Of a stretch of 20,284 nucleotides of DNA, positions 1,588-20,284 are shown one piece after another; positions within the stretch are counted from its first letter, which is position 1, and each line of letters begins with the position of its first letter. Below the pieces are notes generated by a model. That model had not been told where the DNA came from and searched no databases. It saw only the letters and a list, made by a program, of their open reading frames with translations. The position numbers and the translations under genes are program-made. The DNA lies in the IMG/VR virus record IMGVR_UViG_3300027710_000172, positions 1-20,284 of that record; one strand, given 5' to 3'. The stretch comes from a virus.

Positions 1588-2337
1588 ATGAGTGCATTTT
1601 TATACCGTATGCCTTCAGGGATTGCAGGTGCAATCTCTCGCGTACAAACATCTGACGTTGACACTGGTTTTTTTGATAGCAGCTATCCGTTCACTGCTTA
1701 TGGTGTGCCATGTAAAGAAGTTAGCGGCAAATTGCGCCCTATCGCTTCAGGCGATACAGCCGCCAATGTTATCGGCTTCTTGGTTCGTCCATTTCCCACG
1801 ACTGGTGCAAATGCGTCCGACCCGTTAGGTGTTGCTGTTCCGCCAACTACTGGCATCGGCAACCGTATGACTCGCGGCTACATGACCGTCATCAATAACT
1901 CTGGTACGCCTGCTCGTAATGGTCAGGCATATGTCCGTGTTGCTAATGCGTCCAGTGGCAAGCCTATTGGTGGTATTGAGGCAGCAGCAGAGGCAGTATT
2001 CACTGGCGGCACGATTACAGGTACAGGTACAGGCACTATTGCTGGCTCTGCAACTGGTGCGGCTGTGGCGGGTACTTACAGCCTGACGTTACAAACAACT
2101 AGCGGTACATCGAAAGTAACGGTGATTGACCCTAACGGCAAACGTCTTGCTGATGCGACAGTGGGTACAGCTTACACATCCAACGGTGTGACGTTCACGA
2201 TTACTGCCGCAGGTACCATGACTGCTGGTGACTCATTCGCTCCTGTTGTTGCTCAAAATACGCAGGCTATCGCAGGCTGTAAATTTACCAACGCAGGCGA
2301 TGCCAACGGCAACGTCGAAATTGAATACAATATTTAA
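1588..2337 (+). CDS. Capsid structural cement / decoration protein
   Basis: This 249-residue protein lies directly before the major capsid gene and resembles phage structural cement (Gp24-like) proteins that bind the outside of the capsid and stabilise it. The base domain is residues 1-145 plus 222-249. The N-terminus reads M-S-A-F-L-Y-R-M-P-S-G-I-A-G, and a P-F-P-T-T-G loop lies near 68-73. Residues about 146-221 look like a separate beta-rich domain: a Thr/Gly linker, then A-G-T-Y-S-L-T-L, V-I-D-P-N-G-K-R-L, A-T-V-G-T-A-Y-T-S-N-G-V-T-F and A-G-D-S-F. The same pattern recurs in decoration and fibre-like proteins of many phages. A Shine-Dalgarno CGGAGA lies about 8 bases before the ATG. The capsid gene follows after 14 bases, so the two products are probably made together in large amounts. 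Confidence 0.75.
   Translation: MSAFLYRMPSGIAGAISRVQTSDVDTGFFDSSYPFTAYGVPCKEVSGKLRPIASGDTAANVIGFLVRPFPTTGANASDPLGVAVPPTTGIGNRMTRGYMTVINNSGTPARNGQAYVRVANASSGKPIGGIEAAAEAVFTGGTITGTGTGTIAGSATGAAVAGTYSLTLQTTSGTSKVTVIDPNGKRLADATVGTAYTSNGVTFTITAAGTMTAGDSFAPVVAQNTQAIAGCKFTNAGDANGNVEIEYNI
2017..2033 (+). repeat. Short ACAGGT hexamer repeat
   Basis: Two full ACAGGT units and five bases of a third encode a Thr-Gly linker at the start of the inserted domain of the cement protein. The length may vary by replication slippage without breaking the frame, because the unit is six bases. The tract is short and may be incidental. Confidence 0.5.
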
Positions 2338-2351
2338 GGAGCAGAATTATT

Positions 2352-3077
2352 ATGACATCGCATAATAAATACATGAACTCACCACTCACCGTGAGCTTGC
2401 TTGCTCTGTCGATTGGTGCGATCAATGCTGATATTCCGTTGCAAGAGGCTATGCTTCGCTTTAACAAGAAAGTGAAGACCCGTGACGAATTTAAAACCTT
2501 TGACGCTGCAACATTAGACAGCTCAGGCGTATTTTTGGTTGGTGAATTAGAGCGTTTAGACCCTACGCTTCACGAACCACTCTACGAATACACCTTCTTG
2601 CGCGATATTAATTTGCGCGAAGACGTGTCTATCGCTGATGAATTGTCATCGTTCACCAACTCCACATTTGCTGCGGCAGGTGGCGCGAGTCCAAGCGGTA
2701 AGTCTTGGATTGGCAAAGATGCGACTGCTATCGCTGGCTTGGCATTGGACATCGGCAAAACTGCGCAACCTTTGAGCCTTTGGGGTCAAGAGTTAGCTTG
2801 GACAATCCCTGAGTTGTTGTCAGCACAACAAATGGGTCGCCCTGTGGACTCTCAAAAGTTTGAAGGCTTGCAAATCAAATGGAACATGGATGTTGATGAA
2901 CAGGTCTACATCGGTGACTCAACCATTGGTGCGGTCGGCTTAGCTAACAACACAGCGGTCGATACTGCAAACGTGGCTAACGGCGCGTCTACATCGCCTT
3001 TATGGTCAACAAAAACAGCCGACGAAATCCTCGCTGACGTTAATACGTTCTTGAGTCGTGTATGGCGTAGTGCCTAA
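2352..3077 (+). CDS. Major capsid protein (DUF2184), N-terminal fragment before a frameshift
   Basis: These 241 residues form the first two thirds of a DUF2184 major capsid protein, which builds the icosahedral shell. Family-like stretches are the N-terminal S-P-L-T-V-S-L-L-A-L segment, the E-P-L-Y-E-Y-T-F-L-R-D-I motif at about 75-86, and W-N-M-D-V-D-E-Q-V-Y-I-G-D near 180-192. The frame ends at a TAA (3075-3077) in the middle of the fold, after V-W-R-S. The rest of the family sequence continues in the +1 frame from about 3058 to 3429. Correcting the break would give about 363 residues, a normal length for the family. A Shine-Dalgarno AAGGAG lies 9-14 bases before the ATG. The break is either a real inactivating deletion or a sequence/assembly error; see the frameshift site entry. 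An essential capsid gene would not tolerate it in a functional phage. Confidence 0.85.
   Translation: MTSHNKYMNSPLTVSLLALSIGAINADIPLQEAMLRFNKKVKTRDEFKTFDAATLDSSGVFLVGELERLDPTLHEPLYEYTFLRDINLREDVSIADELSSFTNSTFAAAGGASPSGKSWIGKDATAIAGLALDIGKTAQPLSLWGQELAWTIPELLSAQQMGRPVDSQKFEGLQIKWNMDVDEQVYIGDSTIGAVGLANNTAVDTANVANGASTSPLWSTKTADEILADVNTFLSRVWRSA
3055..3077 (+). other. Frameshift site in the major capsid gene
   Basis: The first frame reads R-V-W-R-S-A-stop across this stretch and the +1 frame reads V-Y-G-V-V-P-K-K. Both readings of the 12-mer TATGGCGTAGTG (3061-3072) look like adjacent parts of the family motif. If that 12-mer were present twice with GT between, the gene would read V-W-R-S-G-Y-G-V-V-P-K-K in one frame. 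The observed sequence is therefore what loss of one 14-base repeat unit would leave. The ancestral sequence is inferred, not seen. Confidence 0.65.
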
Positions 3078-3429
3078 AAAGCTGTTATTGCCTCCTGCAA
3101 AATACGGCTACTTGGTCGCCCAGAAGGTCAGTGCTGCGGGCAACATGTCTATCCTTGAGTACATCAAACTCAACAACATTTGCACAGCGCAAAACAACGT
3201 GCCTTTGGATATTCAGCCTCTTAAATGGCTGAATGGTCGTGGTGCGGGTGGTACTGACCGCATGATCGCCTACACGAACGAGAAGAAGTTCTTACGCTTT
3301 CCGATGGTGCCATTGCAGCGCACTCCGCTTGAATATCGCGGCTTGCGTCAAATGACAACTTACTACGGTCGTTTAGGTCAAGTTGAGTTTGTTTATCCTG
3401 AAACCATTGGCTATGCGGACGGTATCTAA
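3058..3429 (+). CDS. Major capsid protein (DUF2184), C-terminal fragment after the frameshift
   Basis: This frame carries the C-terminal third of the DUF2184 capsid protein: P-K-K-L-L-L-P-P-A-K-Y-G-Y, then S-I-L-E-Y, P-L-D-I-Q-P-L-K-W-L, G-G-T-D-R-M-I-A-Y, R-F-P-M-V-P-L-Q-R-T-P, and a final F-V-Y-P-E-T-I-G-Y-A-D-G-I. The frame is open from 3055, just after a TGA at 3052. The GTG at 3058 has no good ribosome binding site, so this is the tail of the interrupted gene rather than a gene of its own. It ends two bases before the next ATG. On its own it lacks the N-arm and much of the capsid core, so it should not assemble. Confidence 0.85.
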   Translation: MYGVVPKKLLLPPAKYGYLVAQKVSAAGNMSILEYIKLNNICTAQNNVPLDIQPLKWLNGRGAGGTDRMIAYTNEKKFLRFPMVPLQRTPLEYRGLRQMTTYYGRLGQVEFVYPETIGYADGI

Positions 3430-3431
3430 TC

Positions 3432-3758
3432 ATGCCTAAGATTCTCGTAAAACAGGCGTTTACGCTACAGCGCGACAATGGCACGACACAGCGTTTCAAT
3501 GCTGGCATTAATGTTGTTTCCGATGCTGATGCCGAGCATTGGTTTTTGAAACTGCATTCCGAGCCAGTTCAAGAAGGTGACGCTGAGTCTGTTGCAGAAA
3601 TGCAGCAAATTCACGCTGAGCTGTTGGCGGCTCAAGAGGCTTTAGCTGTCGAACGTCAACAGCTTGAGGCTGACAAAGCTGAGCTGTTGGCGGCTCAAGA
3701 GGCTTTTTTGGCTGAGAAGTCAGCCTCAGAAAAAACCAAGAAAGCAAAGGCCGAGTAA
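3432..3758 (+). CDS. Small coiled-coil protein after the capsid gene, function unknown
   Basis: I do not recognise a family for this 108-residue protein. Residues 1-50 look globular (I-L-V-K-Q-A-F-T-L-Q-R-D-N-G, then F-N-A-G-I-N-V-V-S-D-A-D-A). This resembles short beta-hairpin proteins often found after capsid genes in other phages. From about 58 on it is an Ala/Glu/Leu/Gln-rich helix ending in a Lys-rich tail, very probably a coiled coil. The motif A-E-L-L-A-A-Q-E-A occurs twice, 21 residues apart, matching an exact 29-base DNA repeat. It sits between the capsid and the neck genes with almost no spacing. A role in the head-neck region is only inferred from position. Confidence 0.65.
   Translation: MPKILVKQAFTLQRDNGTTQRFNAGINVVSDADAEHWFLKLHSEPVQEGDAESVAEMQQIHAELLAAQEALAVERQQLEADKAELLAAQEAFLAEKSASEKTKKAKAE
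3615..3706 (+). repeat. Intragenic 29-base direct repeat
   Basis: Copies at 3615-3643 and 3678-3706 are identical over 29 bases, beginning GCTGAGCTGTTGGCGG. The offset is 63 bases, or 21 codons, which is three heptads, so duplication or loss of a unit would keep the coiled-coil register. The perfect identity, including third codon positions, suggests a recent duplication. Confidence 0.9.
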
Positions 3759-5130: not shown

Positions 5131-5687
5131 CCAATACATCAGTAACAGGTGGTTATTTATCGCCGATCGGCACGCAGCCTGACTATGACAAAGCTCTGTC
5201 TCACGTCCTGCAGGAAGCCATTGCAGGAATAACAGGCATATCGGGCGACTTGGTTAGACGTAAATATCAGCCAACAACACCGAAAATGCCAGAGCCTAGT
5301 GTTGATTGGGTGTCGTTTTATGTTCACACCACAACACCAGACGACAGCCCTGCAATCACGCATAAAGACAGCGTAGACGGTGGTTATGATGAAAACGTCC
5401 GCCACGAAGAATTAAATGTGCTGTGTACGTTTCACGGTACGAATGCTGAAAGCTACGCAAGCAGATTGCGCGACGGCTTGGGCATACCTCAAAACATGGC
5501 AACACTAAGAGCAAATCAAATTAGCTTTATTGATGTTGGCCAAGTGACTGCTGTACCCGAATTTATCAATCAAGTGTGGGTTAGACGCTTTGATGTTCTA
5601 GTCGCATTTAGACGCAAAACAACACGCTCTTATGCTGTTTTAAATGTACTTGGTGCAAATGCGCCAGAAATAACAACCGACCAATAA
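5127..5687 (+). CDS. Neck / tail terminator protein (gp12-like, LIC_12616 family)
   Basis: The 186-residue protein lies directly before the sheath gene, the usual place of the tail terminator that caps the finished tube and joins it to the neck. It resembles the LIC_12616 / phage neck terminator group. It has a helical N-terminus (A-L-S-H-V-L-Q-E-A-I-A-G-I-T-G-I), V-D-W-V-S-F-Y-V near 60-67, a H-E-E-L-N-V-L-C-T-F-H-G strand, and Q-V-W-V-R-R-F-D-V-L-V-A-F-R-R near the end. The ATG overlaps the previous stop (ATGA). Ten bases separate it from the sheath ATG. The call rests on remembered family pattern and position. Confidence 0.65.
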   Translation: MTNTSVTGGYLSPIGTQPDYDKALSHVLQEAIAGITGISGDLVRRKYQPTTPKMPEPSVDWVSFYVHTTTPDDSPAITHKDSVDGGYDENVRHEELNVLCTFHGTNAESYASRLRDGLGIPQNMATLRANQISFIDVGQVTAVPEFINQVWVRRFDVLVAFRRKTTRSYAVLNVLGANAPEITTDQ

Positions 5688-5697
5688 AGGGGATATT

Positions 5698-7512
5698 ATG
5701 TCTACTGGTCTTCCTGTATCTGACGTAAGTAACGTCCAGATCATTATGTCGCCCCTTGCGGCGGCTGTTCGTAATTTTGGCGCAATGATGATTATCGGTT
5801 CGTCCGATGTGATCGACACGTCCGAGCGTTTGCGTTATTACGCGGGCATTACCGATATTGCTACCGATTTTGGCACTGAGTCAGAAGAATACAAAGCGGC
5901 CATTCCGTTCTTTGGCCAGTCTCCTGCGCCATTGTTTTGTTATATCGCTCGATGGGCTAAAACAGCAACTATTGGCGCAATGCGCGGTGCGATTTTAACA
6001 TCCACTCAGCAAGCGATTGCTAATTTTACCGCAGTTTCTAGTGGCGCGATGTTTATCAAAATTGATGGCATTCCCATCTCGTTAAACAGTATTAATTTGT
6101 CATCCGTGACCAATTTGAATGGTGTTGCATCGGCAGTTGAAGCGGCTTTGGATGCAAAAGCAAGTGGCTCTACCGTGGTGTGGGACGCAGGCTATAAGCG
6201 TTTCGTGGTCAAGTCAGGTACAACAGGCACTAGCTCTAAAGTCTTTTATGGCTCAGCACCGACAGCCACGGGCAGCATCTCGTTTGCTGGTCAACCTGCA
6301 AACAATGACACTATCACGCTGAATGGCACGGCTGTTACGTTTGTTAGTGGTACACCGACATCGGGACAGGTACAAATCGGCGCGAGTCTAAGCGTGACAT
6401 TAGCAAGTCTTTTAACGATGCTTAACGCCTCGACCGATGCCGAGCTGGTCAAGTTTGTTTGCGTTAAAAGCGGCACCGTTTTGTACTTACAAGCAGCTGC
6501 AAGCGGAACAGGCGGCAACTCGTTAACAGTGGCCAAATCAGGCACGAACATCAGTGTATCAGGCGCAACATTATCGGGCGGCAGTGGTACCGATATTTCG
6601 TCATTGATGGGGTTGCGTACCGATCAGGCATTAGTACCTGTGGACGGTGTTGCGGCTGAGAATTTGATTGATTGCGTTACTGATTTGGCCGATTTAAGCA
6701 ATGACTGGTACGGCGTATATGTTGCAGATAATACGCTAGTAGATGCCGATATTGTGGCTGTGGCTGATTTTATCGAAGCTGCTGTCCCGTCTCGTATTTT
6801 TGGTAACACTATCATCACGACCGATGTTATCGACTCGGCTAGCACTGATAATTTGGCAATTACGCTAAAAACAGCCGCGTACAGTCGGACACTAGACCAG
6901 TATTCATCGACTAATAACCACGCGGCTATGTCGATTCTTGGTCGTATTGCAACGGTTGATTTTACTGCCCAAAACAGCACATTAACGATTAAGTTTAAGC
7001 AAGAGCCGACAGTTGTTGCTGAAAACTTGCGGTCTAGTCAGGCTCGCACGCTCAAAGAGCGTAACGTCAATGTGTTCGTTAAGTACCAAAACAACACCAA
7101 CATCATTCAAGAAGGCGTGATGTGTAGCGGCATGTTTATTGATGAGCGTCATGGTTTGGATTGGCTACAAAATGACATGCAGACCGAAGAATACAACCTC
7201 TTGTATGCAAGTGGCCAACCTAAAATACCTCAAACCGATGCAGGTTTTAATCAATTTGTGTTAGCAGATGAACGCTCGCTTGAGCGTGCTGTCAATAACG
7301 GTTTGATTGCAGCAGGCGTTTGGAATGGCCCATCATTTGGCGCATTAAAAACAGGCGATACGCTAACTAAGGGGTATTACGTTTACTGCCCACCTGCTGA
7401 CTCTCAGGCGCAGGGCGATCGTGACCAGCGCATTGCGCCGACTCGCCAAATAGCCATTAAATTGGCGGGTGCCGTTCACAAATCTAACGTCATTATTAAC
7501 GTCAATCGCTAA
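5698..7512 (+). CDS. Tail sheath protein (DUF3383) with inserted domain
   Basis: The 604-residue product matches DUF3383 sheath proteins of contractile tails, which form the outer cylinder that shortens to drive the tube through the envelope. Family features are L-P-V-S-D-V-S-N-V-Q at the N-terminus, a K-I-D-G-I-P-I-S-L motif near 121-129, V-W-D-A-G-Y-K-R-F near 161-169, G-T-D-I-S-S-L-M-G-L near 297-306, and W-Y-G-V-Y-V-A-D. Family members are usually about 450-500 residues. The extra length is mainly a Thr/Ser/Gly-rich beta domain at about 189-295, inserted between the S-S-K-V-F-Y-G and G-T-D-I-S-S segments. It probably projects from the sheath surface. A Shine-Dalgarno AAGGGG lies upstream of the ATG. 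The tube gene follows after 11 bases. Confidence 0.88.
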   Translation: MSTGLPVSDVSNVQIIMSPLAAAVRNFGAMMIIGSSDVIDTSERLRYYAGITDIATDFGTESEEYKAAIPFFGQSPAPLFCYIARWAKTATIGAMRGAILTSTQQAIANFTAVSSGAMFIKIDGIPISLNSINLSSVTNLNGVASAVEAALDAKASGSTVVWDAGYKRFVVKSGTTGTSSKVFYGSAPTATGSISFAGQPANNDTITLNGTAVTFVSGTPTSGQVQIGASLSVTLASLLTMLNASTDAELVKFVCVKSGTVLYLQAAASGTGGNSLTVAKSGTNISVSGATLSGGSGTDISSLMGLRTDQALVPVDGVAAENLIDCVTDLADLSNDWYGVYVADNTLVDADIVAVADFIEAAVPSRIFGNTIITTDVIDSASTDNLAITLKTAAYSRTLDQYSSTNNHAAMSILGRIATVDFTAQNSTLTIKFKQEPTVVAENLRSSQARTLKERNVNVFVKYQNNTNIIQEGVMCSGMFIDERHGLDWLQNDMQTEEYNLLYASGQPKIPQTDAGFNQFVLADERSLERAVNNGLIAAGVWNGPSFGALKTGDTLTKGYYVYCPPADSQAQGDRDQRIAPTRQIAIKLAGAVHKSNVIINVNR

Positions 7513-13116: not shown

Positions 13117-13860
13117 ATGATGAAGGCTCTATACTTATTGTTTTTGGTTGTTTTTAGTCAGTGTGCATTAGCCCTTGATTATCTTAAACCGATATATACG
13201 AAAGAGGGCGCGGTTGTTTGCCCTTATGGCTTAACCCTTGATGTTAGGCTTGAGCATAAAAAACTCTTGGGTTTATTTAAAGACTCCGATGAAGCTAGGC
13301 AAAAGGCATCCCATATTGGGTGTACAAGATTCCCAGCAGACGCAAGAATGTACACCTATGACATAGGGAAAGGGTTAATTGCCATAAGCCCAACCGAAAC
13401 AAATTATTATCAATTTATTACCGTTACTTCTTATTTGAAAAATGATGATTATTTGGATAATTATTATGCTGACTTAGAAAGGAGAAAAGAAGCATTGATT
13501 CTTGAGGAAGCAGTCAGGGATATTGAAAATCAGAAAAAAATAGAAGAGCTAAGAAAAAAGGACATTGAGGAAGAGATAAGGCAAAAAGAAGAAAAACTTC
13601 TTGCCGATAAAAGATTTATAAATTGCAATGATTATGGGGTTTGCAGCGACGCTCCAAATGAAATAGCAAAAAAATATATTGAGAAGCAGTGGCAGGCATC
13701 GCCAGACTATGTGCGAGAAAAATGCTTAAAAAAGAAAAAATATAATGACGCTCAAAATTGTTTAGTTGAAGAAGTGGTTCCTTATATGCAAAGCCACCCA
13801 TCAAAAATGGCAGAATGGTTAAACGTAAAACCCGATGAGCCTTATTTGATTAGCCAATAA
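13117..13860 (+). CDS. Moron-like gene: predicted secreted, cysteine-rich coiled-coil protein of unknown function
   Basis: I recognise no family. The 247-residue product opens with a likely signal peptide: M-M-K, a hydrophobic run at 4-19 and A-L-A before a probable cut near 19-20. There is no lipobox. The mature part has six cysteines (35, 69, 170, 176, 203, 215), enough for three disulfides in the periplasm. It also has a Glu/Lys/Arg-rich helix at about 115-165 that should form a coiled coil. The gene looks richer in A/T than its neighbours and splits the baseplate genes between spike and wedge. GAGG at 13107-13110 lies 6 bases before the first ATG; the second ATG at 13120 is equally usable. 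It has its own terminator but no promoter that I can support. Host-surface change or superinfection exclusion is a guess from export and layout; an uncommon virion or lysis-related protein is also possible. Confidence 0.75.
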   Translation: MMKALYLLFLVVFSQCALALDYLKPIYTKEGAVVCPYGLTLDVRLEHKKLLGLFKDSDEARQKASHIGCTRFPADARMYTYDIGKGLIAISPTETNYYQFITVTSYLKNDDYLDNYYADLERRKEALILEEAVRDIENQKKIEELRKKDIEEEIRQKEEKLLADKRFINCNDYGVCSDAPNEIAKKYIEKQWQASPDYVREKCLKKKKYNDAQNCLVEEVVPYMQSHPSKMAEWLNVKPDEPYLISQ

Positions 13861-13994: not shown

Positions 13995-14339
13995 ATGCGC
14001 TATCGTAAACTAGATGAAAATGGCGATTATGTATTAGGCACTGGCCAAGATTTTTTAATTAATAGTCCTGAAGCTGTTGCACAAGCCATTAAAACAAGAC
14101 TGTTATTGCTGAAAGGCGAGTGGTTTACCGATATTACCGATGGTATGCCACAAGACCAAATACTTGGTAAATACACTGATAGTAAAGATATTTTAATAAA
14201 ACAACGCATATTAGAAACACAGGGCGTTAGCGATATTGTGAGTTATTCGTCTGTCACCAATCCCAATACGCGCGAATACACATTTACTGCAACTGTAAAT
14301 ACGATTTATGGCCAAGTCCAATTAAGCGAGATTCTTTAA
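13995..14339 (+). CDS. Baseplate wedge protein, gp25 / gpW-like
   Basis: From the ATG at 13995 the product is 114 residues starting M-R-Y-R-K-L-D-E-N-G-D-Y, then A-V-A-Q-A-I-K-T-R-L-L-L-L-K-G-E-W-F-T-D. This is the pattern of T4 gp25 / P2 gpW-like wedge proteins, which tie the sheath to the baseplate. An in-frame TTG at 13983 would add four residues, but the ATG gives the natural family N-terminus, so I chose it. The ribosome binding site is weak. The stop overlaps the next ATG (TAATG). In intact relatives this gene normally follows the spike gene closely; here the moron segment lies between. Confidence 0.82.
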   Translation: MRYRKLDENGDYVLGTGQDFLINSPEAVAQAIKTRLLLLKGEWFTDITDGMPQDQILGKYTDSKDILIKQRILETQGVSDIVSYSSVTNPNTREYTFTATVNTIYGQVQLSEIL

Positions 14340-15508
14340 TGTCATTAACTCCAATTTCGCCCGTCATTGACGCCAACGGAATATCTATTACAGATTTTGA
14401 AACAAAGTTAAATTGGCTTAAAGATCAGTATCGAGGCATTTTTGGCAATGATATTTATTTGGAAAATGACAGCCAAGACGGTCAGTTAATCGCGGTTATC
14501 TGCAAGGCATTTCAAGATTATGACAACGTGCTTGTCTCCGTTTTTAATAGCTACAGTCCAAGCACATCTCAGGGCGTAGCGTTATCAAATAACGTAAAAA
14601 TTAACGGCATTAGCAGACAAACATCGTCCTATTCGACAGTCGATATTGATGTTGTTGGTCAAGAGGGAATAACTATTATCAATGGCCAAGTCGGTGATGG
14701 TGCTTATAAATGGGCGTTACCTGCGAGCGTGGTCATTCCTTCGGGTGGCGCAATCACCGTTACCGCGACTTGTACAACCTTAGGCGCGATTGTTGCCTTA
14801 GCCAACACCATCACGACCATTATCACCCCTACACGCGGCTGGCAAACCTGTAACAATCCTGATGCGGCCTCAGTCGGCGCGCCAGTTGAAACGGACGCAG
14901 CGTTACGCAGACGACAAGCAAGATCAACGGCATTAGCCGCCAATTTCGTACTTGATGCGATCGAGGGGAGCATTGCTAACGTATCAGGCGTTACTCGTGT
15001 AATTGTTTATGAAAATGACACTAGCACGACTAACGGAGAGGGGGTTCCTGACCATTCAATTAGTGCAGTGGTCGAAGGTGGTGATAGTGATGAGATTGCA
15101 CTGGCCATTGCCGTTAAAAAGCCGTCAGGCACAGGAACTTATGGCGATGTACATAAAACTGTTATTCGCGCCAATGGCTCTACTGTCTTAATCGACTTTT
15201 TCAGACCCGACCCGAAAATCATCAAGGTCTATGTGAGCTTGACCGCCAAAACAGGCTATTCAAGCACTGTGGGCGACTTAATAAAACAAAACATTGTTGA
15301 CCTGATTAACGCGAATTACATCGGCGACGACGTTGAGTATGACTCTGTTTATAGCCAAGCAAAACTCAATAACGACCCACTATCCAAGACCTACAAAATC
15401 GACAGCCTGACTATGTGTATTGATGGTGGTACACCTGCTGCTGCTGATGTGGCTATTGCTTTTGACGAAGTGGCCATTTGCACGATCGACGATGTTGAGA
15501 TCACATAA
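14339..15508 (+). CDS. Baseplate J-like wedge protein
   Basis: The 389-residue protein matches the baseplate J family (P2 gpJ, T4 gp6 relatives), main component of the wedge ring. Typical stretches are N-D-S-Q-D-G-Q-L-I-A-V near 42-52, a P-S-T-S-Q-G-V-A-L-S-N-N-V segment near 72-84, an A-L-R-R-R-Q-A-R-S-T motif near 187-196, and V-I-V-Y-E-N-D-T near 219-226. The C-terminal part has P-D-P-K-I-I-K-V-Y-V-S-L-T-A. Both ends overlap neighbours by one base (TAATG), between the gp25-like and DUF2612 genes, the standard W-J-I order. Confidence 0.88.
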   Translation: MSLTPISPVIDANGISITDFETKLNWLKDQYRGIFGNDIYLENDSQDGQLIAVICKAFQDYDNVLVSVFNSYSPSTSQGVALSNNVKINGISRQTSSYSTVDIDVVGQEGITIINGQVGDGAYKWALPASVVIPSGGAITVTATCTTLGAIVALANTITTIITPTRGWQTCNNPDAASVGAPVETDAALRRRQARSTALAANFVLDAIEGSIANVSGVTRVIVYENDTSTTNGEGVPDHSISAVVEGGDSDEIALAIAVKKPSGTGTYGDVHKTVIRANGSTVLIDFFRPDPKIIKVYVSLTAKTGYSSTVGDLIKQNIVDLINANYIGDDVEYDSVYSQAKLNNDPLSKTYKIDSLTMCIDGGTPAAADVAIAFDEVAICTIDDVEIT

Positions 15509-17064: not shown

Positions 17065-17427
17065 ATGTCCACATTAAACATAACAGGACAACGCCTTGAT
17101 ATTTTAATTAGAAAAGGTGTCGATACTGGAAGCATTACTTTTTCAATAAAAAACGATGACGGCACGCTTGTTAATCTTGGTGACTTTACAGCCACTGGCG
17201 CAATTTATCGTAATGCTGATAAGTTAAAAATGGTGGACTGGTCAATTTCCACGCCTGACGAATATCACTTTTCGGTGAATTTGACACATGAGCAGCTTGC
17301 CGAATTATCAACATCAAGCGAAGACTATCCTCAGTATTTCCACGAAATAAATCTAATAAATGGCGCGGGATTGATTACGCCCTTTGTTTACGGTGATTTT
17401 GTGAGTGTTTGGAGTGCAAATCCGTGA
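17065..17427 (+). CDS. Small beta-rich baseplate or fibre-associated protein
   Basis: From ATG 17065 the product has 120 residues: M-S-T-L-N-I-T-G-Q-R-L-D-I-L-I-R-K-G, then G-S-I-T-F-S-I-K-N-D-D-G, alternating beta strands, and a final G-D-F-V-S-V-W-S-A-N-P. It resembles small proteins between or before fibre genes in many phages, similar in outline to BppU N-terminal domains that anchor fibres. That similarity is a general impression. An in-frame GTG at 17053, directly after the previous stop, would add four residues; the ATG fits the family-like N-terminus better. The TGA overlaps the GTG start of the long fibre gene, so a joint role with that fibre is likely. Confidence 0.65.
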   Translation: MSTLNITGQRLDILIRKGVDTGSITFSIKNDDGTLVNLGDFTATGAIYRNADKLKMVDWSISTPDEYHFSVNLTHEQLAELSTSSEDYPQYFHEINLINGAGLITPFVYGDFVSVWSANP

Positions 17428-20284
17428 ATCAGAAAATAATCGTGGAGCAGGGCGGAGTATCAAAAGAAGTCGATGTTTACAATACTTATTCTACAAATGG
17501 CTGGACTCCAACTGCTGTAAACATCGTAGATGGCGAGCGTGTTGTACAAAAAATTGATGATTTAATTGGCGGGACAGGTAATAAACCAAGCGGAATTATT
17601 GGTAAATATATTTCTAGCGATGGGCTTGTCACAGACATATCGCTTGCAACTGACATAAAAGGAGAGCAGGGCGTACAGGGGGAGCAAGGATTACAGGGTA
17701 CTCAGGGTGAAAAGGGCGATGATGGGGATGTTACGCCTGAGTTTATTGCTCTCGCTGAGCAGGTCGCGGCCGACGCGTTGTCGTCTAGTGAATCAAAAGA
17801 CGCTGCACAGCAGTATAAAAACGAGACTCAATCAGCACTTGCTGAAGTTGAAATTTTAGCAAACCAAGTTCAAATAAACACCGACAATGCAAGCGGCAGT
17901 GCGTCCCTATCTGAGCAATACGCAGAAATAGCCGCAGCAGCAGGACTAATCTTTGACAATACTGCCGATGGTATCACAGCAACTAACGGAACAACCAATA
18001 AATACTTCCATGTTCCACAAGCCGCCCCTAATAACGCATTCTATGACCTATACAAGAATGTGGCTACAGTTGCTACTTACATCAACAGCTATCCAAGTTC
18101 CACCCTAGTGGCTGCCTTGCAACAAACTGCTGATGACGCAGGTGTTAATGCTAGAGCAGCGGCTTTGTCAATTCAACTTGGTGGAACAGATCCTGAAGTT
18201 ATCAATGCTATTCAGACTGCTGGGGGCTACTTTAACTTACTGACTACAGACAACTTGCTATCAGGCGTGGTTAAGACGGACTTTCAAGCATTCTCCAATG
18301 TAACTTTTAGTCGGGCAGGTGCAGCATTAGCTTTGAACACTTCAGGAGTTTATAGCTCTTTTGCAGTTAACACTCTACGCAAGACCAATAAGGGCGTTCT
18401 TTTAGAGTTGGCAGCTACTAACTTGGTGCAAGCTCCTACCACCTTGAATGGCACTGGTTGGTCAGGCTCAGGACAAACACTGACAACAGGTATTGCAACT
18501 CCCAACTCTGCGACAGATGGTACGTCTGTAACCCAAACTGGAGCAACTGATAGCGGCCGTAATTTGAGCATCACACCTTCTGCTGCTGGCGACTTTGTAT
18601 GGTCGCTGATTATGAAGAAGGAGGATATTCAGTATACGCTGTTTACTTTTTCTGGTGGGGGCTATGGTGCAACTCAAGGTTTAGCTGTTAATTGGAATAC
18701 TTCTCCCCCAACTTTGATGACAACTGGTATTGGTGCTCCAACTGCTTACAGTATTAAAGAAGTTTTAAATGGTGGTTGGTATCGTATTCAGATGGTTGTT
18801 AAGCCTACAACTACTGCTACTATGACCATGCAGATTAGAAGTACAAGCGACGGGACATATGCTAATAGAGGGGGTGGCGCGACTGCTGGGCAGAAACTTT
18901 ATAGTTTCTGGCACACTCAATTCGAGACTGGACCTGTGGCCTCCTCTCCGATACTTGCGGCTGGAACTCGTGCGGCTGATGTTGCAACAATCACATGGGC
19001 AGGGTCTGGCCAGACAACGGACAGTGCAAGTGTCACCTATGGCACAGGGCAAGTTGCAACTCTTACTCGTGCAAGTTTTGCTGATAGCACTAAATTCAAT
19101 TTGATTAGCGATAACGGCGCATGGCTTGGCAGTTACATCACAAGCATTGTTTTAACGCCCTCACAATCGACATCATTTAGAACCATCAATCAGCGCGATA
19201 CTGACGCTGTGAGTACCCTAATCGCTGGCTCTATTTCGCCGCTTGTTGCTGCTGTCCGTAATGTGTTGGCAGCCAATGGATTAGGTTGGATGAGTCAAAG
19301 ATTCGGCAACAGAAACACGATAGAAGCAACTGATAACGGGGCAACGCCGTATCTGTATGAAGATGGCACACTGCATTATTGGAATGGCCGCAACTACAAT
19401 ACAGAAGCCGCAATGTTGGCAGCGAGTAACGGTGTTCGCGCATCTAATGTTGTCACGTTTGGAGCGTATGTTGATACAAGTGTCGATTTGTTGGGCGGTA
19501 TCAGTTTTGCGTCTAGTGTAGGGGGCTTTGAAGCGTTAAGCGCGAATAGTGTTTTGTCGTTTAGCGGTGGCAAGTTGATTAACACGTCAACTGCTAACCC
19601 AAACGGATTTCGCATGAATTTAAAAGGCTTTTCGGGTAAAGCCTTAGCATTTAGAGCAAATTGTCGTCGTACAACAGCAGGGGCTTTTACCCTTGCTTAC
19701 ACCAAAATCAATAACAATTTTGGCGGCGCACAATTAGCATCACTTGGTACAACAGCCGCCGATGTAACTGTTATCGGGTCGGCAGGGGCAGGGACTAATT
19801 TCTGGATTGGCGGTGTTCAATCAGGTGGCGGCACAGGTGTTACTGAGTACAATAACGCTCGCTTATATGAAGCCGCACCCAGTCAAAATTTTCCTAATGG
19901 TAACTGGACTTTGTATCTTGAAGGCGTTGCTCCTGCAAGTTTGCCAAGTTCAACAGAAGTTATCGCGCAGGGTGATGTAGGCGTTAACAATGACCGTTTC
20001 CGTATTGAATATCGTACTGACGGTACAGTGTATTTAGTGCAAGACAGCGCGTTTGGTCAAGCAGGTGTAGCACAACAGGCAAGCGTGCAAATTGGCTCGT
20101 TAACGCTAAATTCAGCGTATAAAATTGCTATCAGTTTGAATCGTTCTGAGATTTTAGGCGGTTGCAACGGTTCAACAGGCTCAATAGATAGCGCATTAGC
20201 TACTGCTATTGCCTATTTGCGCTTAGGCCGCAGTCTATCAGGCGAGGCGTTTAGCGGCACGATTACTAAATACGCTGTTTATTC
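17424..20284 (+). CDS. Long tail fibre / receptor-binding protein, 3' end outside window
   Basis: Starting at GTG 17424 (GTGA overlap, GGAG at 17411-17414), this frame stays open to the window edge, at least 953 codons. It has no stop in the window, so a search needing both ends would miss it. Residues 1-79 resemble a fibre-anchoring domain (G-G-T-G-N-K-P-S near 49-56, then S-D-G-L-V-T-D-I). Residues 80-103 are eight uninterrupted Gly-X-Y triplets, a collagen-like rod. About 104-175 is a Ser/Ala/Glu/Gln-rich helix. About 294-520 resembles the concanavalin-like phage spike/fibre module (R-A-G-A-A, K-G-V-L-L-E-L-A-A-T-N-L, T-R-A-A-D-V-A-T-I). The remainder looks like a second lectin-like module, with L-R-L-G-R-S-L-S-G-E and F-S-G-T-I near the visible end. 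It should bind host glycans. Opposite-strand ORFs here are shadows. Confidence 0.82.
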   Translation, partial: MNQKIIVEQGGVSKEVDVYNTYSTNGWTPTAVNIVDGERVVQKIDDLIGGTGNKPSGIIGKYISSDGLVTDISLATDIKGEQGVQGEQGLQGTQGEKGDDGDVTPEFIALAEQVAADALSSSESKDAAQQYKNETQSALAEVEILANQVQINTDNASGSASLSEQYAEIAAAAGLIFDNTADGITATNGTTNKYFHVPQAAPNNAFYDLYKNVATVATYINSYPSSTLVAALQQTADDAGVNARAAALSIQLGGTDPEVINAIQTAGGYFNLLTTDNLLSGVVKTDFQAFSNVTFSRAGAALALNTSGVYSSFAVNTLRKTNKGVLLELAATNLVQAPTTLNGTGWSGSGQTLTTGIATPNSATDGTSVTQTGATDSGRNLSITPSAAGDFVWSLIMKKEDIQYTLFTFSGGGYGATQGLAVNWNTSPPTLMTTGIGAPTAYSIKEVLNGGWYRIQMVVKPTTTATMTMQIRSTSDGTYANRGGGATAGQKLYSFWHTQFETGPVASSPILAAGTRAADVATITWAGSGQTTDSASVTYGTGQVATLTRASFADSTKFNLISDNGAWLGSYITSIVLTPSQSTSFRTINQRDTDAVSTLIAGSISPLVAAVRNVLAANGLGWMSQRFGNRNTIEATDNGATPYLYEDGTLHYWNGRNYNTEAAMLAASNGVRASNVVTFGAYVDTSVDLLGGISFASSVGGFEALSANSVLSFSGGKLINTSTANPNGFRMNLKGFSGKALAFRANCRRTTAGAFTLAYTKINNNFGGAQLASLGTTAADVTVIGSAGAGTNFWIGGVQSGGGTGVTEYNNARLYEAAPSQNFPNGNWTLYLEGVAPASLPSSTEVIAQGDVGVNNDRFRIEYRTDGTVYLVQDSAFGQAGVAQQASVQIGSLTLNSAYKIAISLNRSEILGGCNGSTGSIDSALATAIAYLRLGRSLSGEAFSGTITKYAVY
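17661..17732 (+). repeat. Collagen-like Gly-X-Y repeat in the long fibre gene
   Basis: Eight consecutive triplet repeats (GEQ, GVQ, GEQ, GLQ, GTQ, GEK, GDD, GDV) are encoded here. Phage fibres use such tracts as trimeric rods joining an anchor to a coiled coil. The DNA units vary, so this is an old repeat maintained at protein level. Confidence 0.85.

Follow-up and report, generated by a model that had tools for sequence, protein, structure and literature searches.

Programmed +1 ribosomal frameshifting is known from the capsid gene of Listeria phage PSA and from tail genes, where it occurs at proline CCC codons, and the +1 sites described for those phages consist of CCC_UGA or of a CCC that stands before a pseudoknot (PMC5009743). 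Major capsid genes of the DUF2184 type (PF09950) share the motif W-x-x-[STA]-[GA]-[YFW]-x-x-x-P, with a spacing that is constant, and a W-to-P residue count that is identical, in 92 distinct IMG/VR homologues and in 69 homologous bacterial-genome loci. The window analysed here, that is the whole 20,284-base stretch of DNA (IMG/VR virus record IMGVR_UViG_3300027710_000172, positions 1 to 20,284), comes from an uncultured bacterial virus and is probably a fragment, since genes run past both of its ends. Its capsid gene is open in two frames in succession. The most probable account, to which a probability of about 0.88 is given, is that a single-frame DUF2184-type tailed-phage major capsid gene recently lost 17 bases at about 3060–3066, either in a real defective genome or allele or through an error in the contig.

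A major capsid gene in two frames

The two open reading frames that follow the upstream structural gene (Table 1) matched consecutive parts of one capsid profile, which bears out the sequence-only reading that the capsid gene is split between two frames. The N-terminal part matched PF09950 (Major_capside) over profile positions 4–125 (3e-39, 135.3 bits) and the C-terminal part over positions 131–251 (2.1e-41, 142.4 bits), both above the curated cut-off of 26.8 bits, with five profile positions absent between the matches. As two profile matches of ~1e-40 are ordered and adjacent, only five positions apart, the split is not due to chance. The same order was found against phrog_264 (‘major head protein’), with the N-terminal part at 16–202 (8.9e-47) and the C-terminal part at 207–321 (4e-32). 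The capsid assignment agrees with further matches of the profile to major capsid chains of solved structure (8hdt_A, 1.2e-31; 7kmx_A, 4e-06).

Both frames are open together only over a 23-base overlap (3055–3077), which is bounded by a stop of the +1 frame at 3052–3054 and by the first frame's own stop; the codons after the W at the end of the first open reading frame are not family sequence. A working protein would need a single open frame through the domain, with the constant W-to-P spacing; in the window the frame changes between 3055 and 3077, and the gene is filed as an interrupted member of the PF09950/phrog_264 major capsid family.

Table 1. Position of the split capsid gene, its junction and its immediate neighbours in the window
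Feature	Coordinates	Strand	Details
Upstream neighbour, virion structural protein	1588..2337	+	phrog_563; intact; 88% amino acid identity to IMGVR_UViG_3300009419_000041
Major capsid gene, N-terminal part (PF09950/DUF2184)	2352..3077	+	241 aa; stop TAA 3075–3077
Major capsid gene, C-terminal part, +1 frame	3055..3429	+	homology from about 3058–3061; stop 3427–3429
Deletion junction GTATGGC	3060..3066	+	fits both flanks of the intact relative, itself 17 bases longer here
Downstream neighbour	3432..3758	+	phrog_2619; intact

Size of the deletion and its junction

The nearest relative found in IMG/VR was IMGVR_UViG_3300009419_000041, a 34.8 kb uncultured phage contig that aligns collinearly with 13 kb of the window (78% nucleotide identity). 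Its capsid protein is 85% (N half) and 91% (C half) identical to that of the window and, unlike the latter, is encoded by one intact open reading frame; the relative also differs in carrying other cargo genes at the 13.1–13.9 kb site. Aligned from both flanks, it possesses exactly 17 extra bases at the junction. That a small deletion interrupts the capsid gene, as the sequence-only reading had suggested, is therefore upheld by comparison with relatives. Within the gene, capsid residues ~1–45 (2352–2500) differ strongly from those of the relative while the remainder is >90% identical, a sharp change of divergence inside a single gene.

The size first proposed for the loss was 14 bases, one unit of an ancestral repeat in which the 12-mer TATGGCGTAGTG would have occurred twice with GT in between. 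The 12-mer does lie at 3061–3072, where the two frames translate it as W-R-S and Y-G-V-V, and losses of 14 and 17 bases give an identical change of frame. The nearest intact relative, however, is longer by 17 bases, a loss that fits the family spacing, whereas a loss of 14 would make the ancestor (W-R-S-G-Y) shorter by one residue than any of the 161 homologues. The serine of W-R-S would stand at W+2, against the S, T or A that the family has at W+3; W-R-S and Y-G-V-V are not consecutive parts of the family motif, and this serine is the V-V-P codons read out of frame, outside the motif. Nor did an alignment of relatives recover a duplicated 12-mer, as none of the 172 homologous sites contained TATGGCGTAGTG and no direct repeat longer than 4 bases at an offset of 14 was present at the 151 distinct sites. 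The 14-base unit was rejected on the family spacing and the nearest relative and is considered highly improbable, the 12-mer repeat being a coincidence of overlapping frames.

The junction of the 17-base loss was compared with the flanks of the relative, to which it fits at 6 of 7 bases on the left (V-W codons) and 5 of 7 on the right (Y-x codons, GTATG exact), an inexact fit measured against a 78%-identical sequence. Such a fit to both sides is compatible with the remnant expected of a deletion between short direct repeats, which would leave the breakpoint ambiguous over roughly 5–10 bases. Repeats of about this length, 17 bases apart, may have given rise to the loss through slipped-strand mispairing or template switching. 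The loss puts the final third of the capsid gene in the +1 frame, so that the protein ends at residue 241. As sequenced, this copy of the gene would probably be unable to make a capsid. No direct repeat >6 bases at an offset of 17 was found among 151 distinct homologous sites in more distant homologues. The search returned no intact same-species copy of the window phage, and among viral contigs no second record with the same junction, though such a search may leave out near-identical records. Against the phage collection megablast gave no match to the window; distant blastn matches had about 67–70% identity to Klebsiella, Acinetobacter, Escherichia and other phages.

Selection, translation and origin of the lesion

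Both capsid halves are under equal and strong purifying selection (dN/dS about 0.04). Compared with the relative, the N-terminal part (564 bases) had a dN of 0.038 and a dS of 0.86 (dN/dS 0.044), and the C-terminal part (360 bases) a dN of 0.039 and a dS of 0.98 (dN/dS 0.040). The +1 frame contained no further stop before 3427 and no further indel in its alignment with the relative. As a rough bound, all of the nonsynonymous change in the C-terminal part, were it neutral and later than the lesion, would make up only some 4% of all divergence between the two sequences. Capsid aside, 19 window genes match the relative, 17 of them in a full-length open frame; the remaining two are a gene truncated where the fetched stretch ends (14339–15508) and a variable cargo gene (13117–13860). 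From the equal selection on the halves and the intact neighbours it follows that the lesion either arose very recently or is a mistake in the record. A decayed prophage, as had been supposed for the case of a real break, finds no general support in a single fresh lesion with selection intact on both halves.

Intact selection on both halves would also be expected if ribosomes shifted +1 within the 23-base overlap and thereby made a functional capsid protein that lacks six residues in the loop following a long helix; there is precedent for frameshifting in phage capsid and tail genes (PMC5009743). If this were true, the +1 shift would accommodate a tolerated deletion and frameshifting would be required for the core capsid fold. 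Read directly, however, the overlap contains neither CCC_UGA nor a CCC before a pseudoknot. Relatives are single-frame at 102 of 102 IMG/VR loci and at 69 of 71 bacterial-genome loci, the two exceptions breaking elsewhere, and the joined product would be six residues short in a loop that has the same length in all 161 homologues. In an AlphaFold model of the intact relative's protein this gap falls between helix 222–239 and strand 248–251; the model as a whole is of low confidence (mean pLDDT, 61.7), and only residues 220–260 were used (block means about 86–89). Programmed frameshifting is unlikely, and of the readings weighed here it is the least probable.

The two frameshifted bacterial-genome loci are a prophage capsid gene of Acinetobacter calcoaceticus ANC 3811 (locus L174, about 5636–5642), which is broken ~20 residues further on than in the window, and a prophage capsid gene of an Arsenophonus endosymbiont (locus L177, about 5383–5387), broken near residue 175. 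A break recurring at the site of the window was not found among the 102 IMG/VR and 71 bacterial-genome capsid loci. With 2 of 71 loci frameshifted, such lesions arise at a low background rate, and the lesion in the window is an ordinary one.

For the 17-base deletion itself, the somewhat more probable origin is that the sampled population harboured a defective genome or allele. A contig error is a possible but less probable origin; the sampled phage would then be intact, and the gap would stem from a chimaera formed by amplification or template switching, from a low-coverage read or from a choice made in bubble resolution. The equal strong purifying selection on both halves with no other lesion points in that direction, none of the 102 other IMG/VR capsid loci examined is broken, and a structural gene broken with no further decay leaves room for it; against it, a clean internal 17-base deletion is atypical of homopolymer error, and frameshifted capsid genes occur in isolate genomes too, as the Acinetobacter and Arsenophonus loci demonstrate. 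Collapse of a repeat of 5–12 bases is implausible in de Bruijn assembly with the usual k of 21 or more. Likewise, the collapse of a 10–12 base repeat, the artefact that the sequence-only reading had proposed, is implausible at these k-mers; as an artefact, the gap would be better explained by a chimaeric or low-coverage read.

Genomic setting and comparison with known capsid genes

Beyond the capsid gene, the window encodes a DUF3383 tail sheath protein (5698–7512) of 604 aa which, matched in two stretches to a profile of 493 positions, seems to bear an inserted domain and is also present in IMGVR_UViG_3300009419_000041 (87% identity). A variable cargo site lies among the late genes (13117–13860), where the window has one 247-aa open reading frame without a Pfam match; in the relative the site spans ~2.5 kb, with a 468-aa open reading frame (39% identity over 92 residues) and a 317-aa one that, judged by eye, has the look of a Bro-N-type antirepressor. 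A large tail-fibre-like open reading frame (17409–20284, 958 aa), open at the window end, includes a short collagen-like stretch with a weak PF01391 match (E 0.0035, below the cut-off).

For annotation, the two capsid open reading frames are best recorded as one interrupted major capsid gene and not as two proteins, with the inferred loss corrected from 14 to 17 bases, and until the reads at 3040–3090 have been checked the contig should not be treated as a functional genome.

The window gene resembles the PF09950/phrog_264 family in that its halves match in order and it lies among head and tail genes (Mu F-like, DUF2213, DUF3383 sheath), and it differs from the intact members in its broken frame, with a net loss of 17 bases. 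With the capsid gene of Listeria phage PSA it shares the use of two frames in a capsid gene (PMC5009743); unlike PSA, the window has no proline CCC shift site here, and the core fold would depend on a shift whose product would be six residues short.
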